This document shows, piece after piece, positions 38,911 to 41,614 of a DNA stretch of 64,000 bases. The notes beneath the pieces are model-generated. The model was not told the DNA's origin, did not search any database, and saw nothing but the letters and a program-made list of their open reading frames with translations. This DNA comes from Halorubrum sp. CSM-61 (GTDB taxonomy: Archaea; Halobacteriota; Halobacteria; Halobacteriales; Haloferacaceae). The DNA is taken from the NCBI RefSeq assembly GCF_003781945.1, contig NZ_RJJW01000002.1:15-64014 (forward strand), read 5' to 3'. The stretch's first letter is position 1, and the number at the start of each line of letters is the position of its first letter. Both the position numbers and the translations under genes were made by a program.

Positions 38911-39159
38911 TCACGGTCGGTACCGGAACGAGACGACGGTGCCGATGGTGTCCTCGCCGTCGATGGCCTCGGTGGCGACGGTCGCGGCGACGACCGCGTC
39001 CGCGCCGAGCGCCTCCTCGATCACCGCGGTGAGCGCGTCGGGGTCGGCGCCCTGCTGGAGCACCGGCACCCGGACCTGTCGCCGGTTGACGGCGACGTCG
39101 CCGAGGTCGTAGTCGGTGTGCTCGAACGCGTCGCGGATCGCGGCGTGAACGTCGGTCAT
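38911..39159 (-). CDS. Hypothetical small alpha/beta protein (82 aa)
   Basis: This 82-residue acidic protein has a plausible helix-strand-helix-strand pattern (MTDVHAAIRDAFEHTDYDL, then QVRVPVLQQGADPDALTAVIEEALGADAV, ending TVVSFRYRP). No family is recognised. It sits between the FilR1-type regulator (97 bases downstream on the same strand) and the AT-rich CHAT/peptide cassette. It could be a stand-alone haloarchaeal protein. Confidence 0.6.
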   Translation of the reverse strand: MTDVHAAIRDAFEHTDYDLGDVAVNRRQVRVPVLQQGADPDALTAVIEEALGADAVVAATVATEAIDGEDTIGTVVSFRYRP

Positions 39160-39340: not shown

Positions 39341-39358
39341 GTTAATATCACGCGATAT
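39341..39358 (+). promoter_or_regulatory. TATA box with overlapping ATATC/GATAT dyad
   Basis: GTTAATA (39341-39347) lies ~25 bases before ATG 39369, right for a leaderless message. ATATC-ACGC-GATAT (39345-39358) overlaps it and could be a repressor site. The sequence upstream (39278-39309) is an unusually long AT run. Confidence 0.5.
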
Positions 39359-39368
39359 CTTGTGTAAT

Positions 39369-39500
39369 ATGCACGAAAGTGTTGCAGACTACGTGGCAGA
39401 GCACCCGAAGATGGCCGGCGTCCTGTTCACCGCGCTCCTTCTGCTGACGCAGGCGGCTCCCGCGGCGGCGAACATTGCTGGCGCAAACCCGGGCCCTTAA
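39369..39500 (+). CDS. 43-residue hydrophobic peptide next to CHAT protease
   Basis: The frame encodes 43 residues: a charged N-terminus (MHESVADYVAEHPK), a hydrophobic stretch (MAGVLFTALLLLTQ), an Ala-rich AAPAAA stretch and an end NIAGANPGP. It may be a single membrane helix. Alternatively it is a signal peptide whose A-x-A site would free a nine-residue peptide. A leaderless promoter supports reality. Its stop overlaps the stop of the CHAT gene by four bases, tail to tail, and both lie in the same AT-rich tract. Short haloarchaeal peptides with this layout exist, but I know no established function. Confidence 0.7.
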   Translation: MHESVADYVAEHPKMAGVLFTALLLLTQAAPAAANIAGANPGP

Positions 39501-41614
39501 TCAAATTTTAGATTTTCACTCCAAACAAGTTCGTCATTATAGAAAACCGGTACTAGCTCCAAGTCGAGGAGATCAGACAGTTCTCCTTTGTGTACGTCCT
39601 TGTGCTCGAATTTCTCCGGGACATAATAATTAGAGTTGGCTACATCCAAATTAAGCCACGCAAGAGATCCCACTCCATGGTTTCTATTTGGGAAAAATTG
39701 TGCTGATAAGTCCCATTTCGAATTATCTTTTTTTGATGCATTGCACACAACTGCGATTCCGCTGCGGCTCTGACAGATCGTCGTCCCCCCGTCACCAACC
39801 ACGATGTACTGGTGGCCGGTGATCAGCTCCCGCTTGGCGACGTGGAGCGCGGTGCGCAGGTTGAATCCGCTGTTCATCAGGCGGGCGACGATGCGACCGA
39901 GCTGGGTCGCCGGCGAGTTCGCCACGTCGGAGAGGGTGACGATACCTCCGCGGGAGCCGCGGTGGACGAGGGCCTCGCCCTGCTGGTAGGACTGGCAGGC
40001 GTTGAGCAGGAAGGCGCTGACGCCGACGTCGAGGTCCTCAGTAGTGAGGTCAAGATAGCTATCATCACACTGCATCCCGCGGTCGTCGACGTGGCCGATG
40101 TAGTGGAGGAAGTCCACGTCGGACCGTAGGGCCTCGCGCATCTCCTCGCGGGTGAGGTCGTGGCGAACCTCGATGTCGAACTGGACCATGTCGCGGAGGC
40201 CGTACAGGTCCGCGACCTCCCCCTCCTCGCGCATCTGCTCGTCGTTGCAGACGACGAGGACGGAGATCCGCGACTGCTCGACCGCGCCGGCCTCCAACCG
40301 ACGGTGGTACGCGTCGAGGGTGGCCTTGTTGGCGTCGAGCGGGACGCCGGCGCCGACCCACGCGTGCTCGACGGTGTCGACGGGCTCGGGCCGCACGAAG
40401 TCGGCGTCGGTCGGCACCGCGCCGCGCTCCGCCGAGGCGTCGGCACCGCGGGTGGGTTCGGTCCCGGCGGCGCCGCCCCGGACGAACTCGTCCGGACCGA
40501 GGGGTGCCTCGTTAGCCTGGGGCCCACGGAAGAACCCGACCCCGTCGCCCTCGCCGGCCGTCGCGGGGGTAACCGTCTCCGGCGACCGGACGATCGACAG
40601 CTCGCCGGCCACGAACGGGAGCATCTCCACGTTCTCGGGGTCGGGGCGCACGTCGGTCGTCAGCGTCCACTGGGGGAGCTCCGGCTCGACGCGCTCGAAG
40701 GCGACCGCGAGGTACTCGCCGAGCCGCTCCGTGAGCGGGAGGCCGTACAGCCGGCCCCAGTCGAGGTCGAGGTCGGTGGCCTCGCGCTCGTGGAGGTCGA
40801 CCGGGTAAAAGCCCTCCGTGCGCGCGAGGCAGTCGAAGTGGAACGCCTGCCGGAGCACCTCGGCGGTCCGACGTTCGAATTCGGGCTCTAGGGGATGGGT
40901 CCAGCCGTCTCCCTCGATTCGGGGCGCGTCGCCCGGGACCACGTCGGCAGCGAAGTAGTACGCCAGCGATACCACCGGGTAGAGGTAGCGGTACTCCGGG
41001 GGGACGACGATCCGAATCCCGGAGTCGAGCGGCTCGACCCGATCGGGGACGCGGAGCTCTTCGCCCGGCTCGATCAGCGGCGGGTGCCCGCGGAGGGTGG
41101 GGAAGGAGCGCTCCGGGCTCGTCGTCTGAAGCGCGGAGCCGAGCAGGGAGACCGCGTCCATCAGCGACTCGGGGTCGGTCGGCGTCTCGATCGTCCCCGC
41201 CGGCACCTGGTGGAGCGACCGGAACCCGAGCGTCACCTCGGCGGGGGCGTCGAGGTCGATCCGAGTCGTCCGCTCCGTCGTCGACACGGAGAAGGGCGAC
41301 GCGAACGCGAGGTACAGCTTCGTCGGCGCGGGGTCGATGCCGACGTGGTACGTCCCCGCCGGCATCGCGTAGGAGTCGCCGCGGGTGAGCAGCGTCCCGT
41401 CGCCGGAGCGGGTCTCCACGACCGCGACGCGGGGGATCTCGACGGATCCGGTCTCGACGGTCACGCTCGCGTCGACCGGGAAGTAGTGGGCGTCCTCGGG
41501 GCTCGCGGTCGGCTCGACCGGTCGGTCGGTGTACACCTCGAACTGCGTGTTCTCGATGTGGTCCGTGACGGTGAGTCCGGCCGCGTCGGACAGCGGGTCG
41601 ATGTCGATACTCAT
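39497..41614 (-). CDS. CHAT-domain (caspase-like) protease
   Basis: The 705-residue protein has a long N-terminal beta-rich region (~1-330), a low-complexity stretch (~345-410) and a C-terminal CHAT peptidase domain (~430-620). The catalytic pair is His508 in YIGHVDD and Cys540 in LLNACQSYQQG. CHAT proteases act in prokaryotic defence or programmed death by cutting a partner protein. The last ~98 codons (39497-39790) are strikingly AT-rich and rich in Asn/Lys, unlike the rest, which suggests the C-terminus was exchanged. The gene for a hydrophobic peptide ends on its stop. A TATA-like GCTTTATCG near 41712-41720 may be its promoter. Confidence 0.9.
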   Translation of the reverse strand: MSIDIDPLSDAAGLTVTDHIENTQFEVYTDRPVEPTASPEDAHYFPVDASVTVETGSVEIPRVAVVETRSGDGTLLTRGDSYAMPAGTYHVGIDPAPTKLYLAFASPFSVSTTERTTRIDLDAPAEVTLGFRSLHQVPAGTIETPTDPESLMDAVSLLGSALQTTSPERSFPTLRGHPPLIEPGEELRVPDRVEPLDSGIRIVVPPEYRYLYPVVSLAYYFAADVVPGDAPRIEGDGWTHPLEPEFERRTAEVLRQAFHFDCLARTEGFYPVDLHEREATDLDLDWGRLYGLPLTERLGEYLAVAFERVEPELPQWTLTTDVRPDPENVEMLPFVAGELSIVRSPETVTPATAGEGDGVGFFRGPQANEAPLGPDEFVRGGAAGTEPTRGADASAERGAVPTDADFVRPEPVDTVEHAWVGAGVPLDANKATLDAYHRRLEAGAVEQSRISVLVVCNDEQMREEGEVADLYGLRDMVQFDIEVRHDLTREEMREALRSDVDFLHYIGHVDDRGMQCDDSYLDLTTEDLDVGVSAFLLNACQSYQQGEALVHRGSRGGIVTLSDVANSPATQLGRIVARLMNSGFNLRTALHVAKRELITGHQYIVVGDGGTTICQSRSGIAVVCNASKKDNSKWDLSAQFFPNRNHGVGSLAWLNLDVANSNYYVPEKFEHKDVHKGELSDLLDLELVPVFYNDELVWSENLKFD

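Follow-up and report, generated by a model that had tools for sequence, protein, structure and literature searches.

In Halorubrum sp. CSM-61, a gene for a CHAT-type protease meets, end to end, a gene encoding only 43 residues. The locus raises the question of whether the two products act together and, if so, which part of each would be responsible. The window analyzed is a 64,000-nucleotide stretch of contig NZ_RJJW01000002.1, and all coordinates are positions within it. The first-pass annotation had put the two genes forward as a possible undescribed pair, in which the protease either cuts the hydrophobic peptide to release a pore, toxin or signal or senses the peptide as a signal through its large N-terminal region.

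Results

Layout of the locus

The stops of the two open reading frames share 4 bases (39497–39500) in a tail-to-tail arrangement, exactly as first described. The product of the shorter frame is MHESVADYVAEHPKMAGVLFTALLLLTQAAPAAANIAGANPGP. The features of the locus are collected in Table 1. In the AlphaFold (AF2) model of the protease the N-terminal region is followed by a disordered linker (residues 346–410). The TATA-like sequence TTAATAT lies about 24 bp upstream of the peptide ATG, a position that would fit a leaderless promoter, and AT-rich stretches are also found upstream of the peptide gene in relatives; a search for a TTTAAAT-type promoter pattern gave no match. The neighbors scanned in the window were AspA-like, a pyrophosphatase and a FilR1-like regulator. 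An 82-residue open reading frame that adjoins the peptide gene (38911–39159) was without any Pfam match.

Table 1. Features of the protease-peptide locus, with the evidence for each
Feature	Position	Strand	Evidence or remark
CHAT (caspase-fold) protease gene, 705 aa	39497..41614	-	ORF call, Pfam, alignments, AF2 model, Foldseek
N-terminal region, residues 1-345, conserved, without Pfam family	40580..41614	-	Pfam, conservation, AF2 model
Protease domain, about residues 411-619	39758..40384	-	AF2 model, Foldseek
Catalytic His508 codon	40091..40093	-	Invariant in relatives
Catalytic Cys540 codon	39995..39997	-	Invariant in relatives
C-terminal domain, residues 620-705, hypervariable, beta-rich; proposed tail reader	39500..39757	-	Conservation, synonymous divergence, AF2 model
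Peptide gene, Pfam PF24335 (DUF7503), 43 aa	39369..39500	+	ORF call, Pfam
Leader (codons 1-35) with n-, h- and c-regions like those of a signal peptide; small-x-small end	39369..39473	+	Conservation, synonymous/nonsynonymous; putative signal-peptide function
Tail, codons 36-43, IAGANPGP: residues 36-41 hypervariable, then Gly-Pro	39474..39497	+	Alignment of relatives
AT-rich hypervariable block spanning the convergent junction (CHAT codon 620 to peptide codon 36)	39474..39757	.	~285 bp
Candidate leaderless promoter for the peptide gene (TATA-like TTAATAT)	39342..39348	+	Sequence; putative

Identity of the two products

The protease scored 20.5 bits against the Pfam CHAT family (PF12770), below the gathering cut-off of 24. 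Nevertheless, two alignments, one with 22 and one with 48 relatives, showed no change at His508 or Cys540; the closest relatives are from Halorubrum. The AlphaFold model (pLDDT 86) was matched by Foldseek to PDB structures of SAVED-CHAT, separase, gingipain, Craspase TPR-CHAT and caspase. By its modeled caspase-like fold and His-Cys dyad the protein is a CHAT/caspase-fold cysteine protease, as first annotated, and proteolysis is predicted. A search by sequence found no solved relative of the protease. For the C-terminal domain the PDB gave no confident fold match, hence none indicative of peptide binding, and no export signal was evident in the protein.

The peptide is a member of DUF7503, with 73 bits against a cut-off of 27 and alignment to positions 1–42 of the 42-position profile. 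DUF7503 is a family of unknown function for which we found no published link to CHAT proteins; the literature searched contained no paper on DUF7503, PF24335 or the leader motif, and no description of the CHAT-peptide pair. Canonical peptides consist of a leader that resembles a signal peptide, which the tail arrays described below do not have, and a short variable remainder. The leader ends in a small-x-small motif, and the peptide itself in Gly-Pro, each in 192 of 193 relatives. In the peptide's own genome, no other protein ends in ANPGP. A few paired peptides lack the Gly-Pro end (L279, L280 and L285), terminating in ..NGGGIR or ..GGTIR or reading through.

Pairing across the Halobacteria

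Of 391 halobacterial genomes, 335 gave a DUF7503 match, Haloferax volcanii among them, and 365 had CHAT relatives. The surroundings of the best 150 DUF7503 places were resolved from coordinates (41 places) or from retrieved sequence (109 places), and a CHAT gene lay tail-to-tail with the peptide gene in 149 of them, mostly no more than 100 bp away; the exception was L124. Starting from the protease, a peptide was found beside about 90% of 78 GTDB loci. Pairing is thus near-obligate, and to the question of whether the peptide occurs mostly away from a CHAT neighbor the answer is no. Among weaker or extra-copy peptides, 26 of 30 loci were convergent with a CHAT gene; in the others the CHAT match was on the opposite strand in a different arrangement (L272 and L275), the locus was cut by a contig end (L273) or no CHAT gene was nearby (L274). 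In genomes carrying four to six peptides, almost all of the copies examined had a CHAT gene of their own.

Because this pairing recurs across the class and the peptide belongs to PF24335, a chance open reading frame is ruled out, and the proposal of an undescribed pair is strongly supported. Diverged convergent peptides ending in Gly-Pro occur in DUF7503-negative genomes (L294, L295 and L298); since both these and the tail arrays escape the DUF7503 model, Pfam under-counts the pair. The locus is syntenic across Halorubrum, at a fixed chromosomal position, and no DUF7503 or CHAT relative was confirmed in viral contigs; a mobile or viral origin was therefore rejected. Membership in a known defense system was likewise rejected, there being no PADLOC hit for the CHAT protein. 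The pair is, moreover, close to universal in the class, and a role in defense would be hypothetical.

A hypervariable block at the junction

Conservation was profiled over 39 Halorubrum-type loci. CHAT residues 1–619 were mostly 75–96% identical except in the linker, and residues 626–700 were 33–46% identical in a nearly gapless alignment. The peptide was near-invariant up to residue 35, variable at residues 36–41 and again invariant at its Gly-Pro end. Identity thus falls sharply at CHAT 619/620 and at peptide 35/36, the two borders of one block. In 154 close pairs, synonymous divergence was 0.25 in the CHAT core, 0.69 at residues 620–640 and 0.79 at 640–705; it was 0.74 in the peptide tail and 0.12–0.25 in the leader. 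Divergence at synonymous sites in the block is near-saturated, and its GC content drops to 0.43–0.54 from about 0.70. Because the jump affects the protease end and the tail together and spares the leader, the block gives the impression of having been replaced, not of having drifted, and seems to move as a single allele. As a control, a paralogous CHAT subfamily without a peptide had a C-terminal pS about equal to its core pS and a nearly flat GC profile, and so carries no such block. As sources of the variation, silent donor cassettes were rejected, and so was a diversity-generating template; the block has one match in its own genome.

Within the block, the tail and the protease end co-vary. 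C-terminal distance was hardly related to core distance (r = 0.15). The partial Mantel correlation between C-terminus and tail, given core and leader, was 0.256 in Halorubrum (maximum of 2000 permutations, 0.209) and 0.233 outside Halorubrum, and across nine lineages tail diversity rose with excess C-terminal divergence (Spearman 0.72, p = 0.03). Per-column coupling to the tail was higher in residues 620–705 than in the rest of the protease at matched diversity, although weak. Tail and C-terminus belong to one physically linked block, so that hitch-hiking, and not contact, could lie behind their co-variation.

Tail arrays in Haloplanus-type genomes

CHAT genes of one genus (g13) often lack a DUF7503 partner and instead face, stop against stop, a gene made of tandem tails. 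The genus appears to be Haloplanus, because a Haloplanus contig (L251) shows the same feature. Such genes were found at L172–L175, L251 and L291–L293 with 2–13 tail copies: 13 of GNSGGISGP, 7 of GNGSGISGP, 7 and 10 of GNGGGISGP, 5 of GNSSGISGP, 4 of GNGGGISGP and 2 of GNGGAVSGP. The units are separated by spacers of the YTAD/FTAD/MTAD/YNAD type, and Gly-Pro stands at the very end. The L172 gene matched no Pfam family above cut-off. Units inside one array gene are identical in protein and differ at synonymous sites (pS 0.54 and pN 0 in L172); the tail is under selection. The CHAT C-termini of these genomes are not hypervariable (pS 0.47 versus 0.41). Two g13 genomes (L016 and L020) keep a canonical DUF7503 peptide, with the tails GNSGAISGP and SNGAATSGP.

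The arrays have no hydrophobic leader, signal peptide or transmembrane stretch, and they appear to be cytosolic, as does the CHAT protein. With the hydrophobic part absent and the tail multiplied, the short tail with its free Gly-Pro carboxyl end emerges as the functional unit.

Discussion

Taken from comparative sequence data, the explanation that we consider rather probable is that the pair forms a ligand-sensor recognition module, in which the tail would be the cognate ligand of the CHAT C-terminal domain and its binding would set protease activity. The functional part of the peptide would be its last 8–9 residues with the free Gly-Pro carboxyl end; residues 620–705 would recognize it, and lineages and paralogous loci would carry differing tail and reader alleles. 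The convergent layout sets both specificity ends side by side, and therefore one recombination event would replace both. At its simplest, the C-terminal domain would recognize the free Gly-Pro end, which would imply physical binding of the tail. We favor a direction of effect in which a self-marker or signal, by its presence or mismatch, would switch the protease, and the module may serve self/non-self (kin) recognition or peptide signaling; in canonical peptides, signal peptidase may cleave the leader. The early suggestion that the protease senses a signal fits these data. Its placement of the sensor in the large N-terminal region does not, that region being conserved and the hypervariable residues 620–705 the most likely sensor.

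Two specific versions of this module can be distinguished by where the tail would act. It is a tentative possibility that the tail is an intracellular self-marker holding its own CHAT protein inactive. The protease would then be freed when a fusing cell or a virus brings in a tail or takes one away, which would make the system an archaeal counterpart of heterokaryon incompatibility in fungi. The apparently cytosolic location of both the arrays and the protease agrees with this, as do the polymorphism and block exchange and the preference of haloarchaea to fuse with their own species, the mechanism of which is partly known (PMC5496957); against it, CHAT proteins without a peptide keep their His and Cys, so that lack of the cognate tail need not make the protease lethal. 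Cast as archaeal kin recognition, with a Gly-Pro-ended self-mark, a matched caspase-like protease and a mismatch after fusion or infection that triggers it, the idea is likewise only a tentative one. More doubtful is a secreted pheromone: a prepropeptide would be cut at an A-x-A site and re-imported in the manner of Phr and AimP peptides, and the CHAT protein would read it in the cytosol. The Sec-like leader with its conserved small-x-small end, the short variable mature part with a fixed C-terminal end and the multi-copy precursors reminiscent of alpha-factor would suit a pheromone. However, the arrays have no leader, so export is apparently unneeded there, which argues against the simple secreted version, and the CHAT protein has no evident export signal of its own.

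Known CHAT proteases cut partners, and the hydrophobic helix of the peptide would suit a protease that cuts it into a pore or toxin, as first proposed. The hydrophobic part is nevertheless dispensable in Haloplanus-type genomes, where tail repeats alone remain, and the unit that is both selected and variable is the tail; we regard such an activity as very improbable. A neutral hotspot, in which weakly constrained gene ends at a recombination- or mutation-prone junction vary without functional match, would account for the AT-rich block at a gene junction and for co-variation, which linkage alone would produce, but is improbable in view of the near-universal Gly-Pro end, the array units with pN of 0 at pS up to 0.54, the absence of hypervariability from peptide-less paralogues and a genome without a second block copy to serve as donor cassette or template.

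In bacterial quorum sensing by peptides, the hypervariable signal and receptor blocks of agr and comQXP likewise combine a conserved precursor, the source of a variable short peptide, with a neighboring receptor region that co-diversifies with this peptide; the present pair differs in being archaeal and convergent, in having no histidine kinase or modification enzyme and in its candidate receptor, a caspase-fold protease. The CHAT-protease defense systems (bacterial gasdermin, Craspase TPR-CHAT/Csx30 and SAVED-CHAT) share with it the CHAT fold and His-Cys dyad. However, no gasdermin, CRISPR or SAVED partner was seen here, the partner being a 43-residue DUF7503 peptide. Fungal allorecognition (heterokaryon incompatibility) also relies on neighboring genes that are polymorphic, such as HET-Q1/HET-Q2, and some of these pairs include a protease; the present pair is archaeal, has no gasdermin and is not known to kill. 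Yeast alpha-factor precursors resemble the Haloplanus-type arrays in their tandem identical units and short spacers, but the arrays have neither a signal sequence nor Kex2-type spacers and are paired with a protease gene.

Cell-cell signaling in haloarchaea has been described as largely unexplored (PMC10223598). If the proposed module is real, it would be a class-wide archaeal system of peptide recognition with a caspase-fold protease as reader, and DUF7503 would gain both a partner and a functional part. With two small genes and a set of short synthetic peptides, haloarchaeal cell-cell communication and the same-species preference in fusion could then be put to the test.

Some CHAT proteins with intact His and Cys residues occur without a recognizable peptide, which counts against the proposed module; they may have another partner. 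The same proteins bear on a possible toxin-antitoxin pair, in which the effector would be lethal in the absence of its partner. At L138, L152, L164, L104 and L133 a second CHAT gene without a recognizable peptide lies near a gene that is ribosomal protein S7-like by its translated sequence, and two genomes of one genus (G124 and G345) contain 10–12 CHAT matches each.
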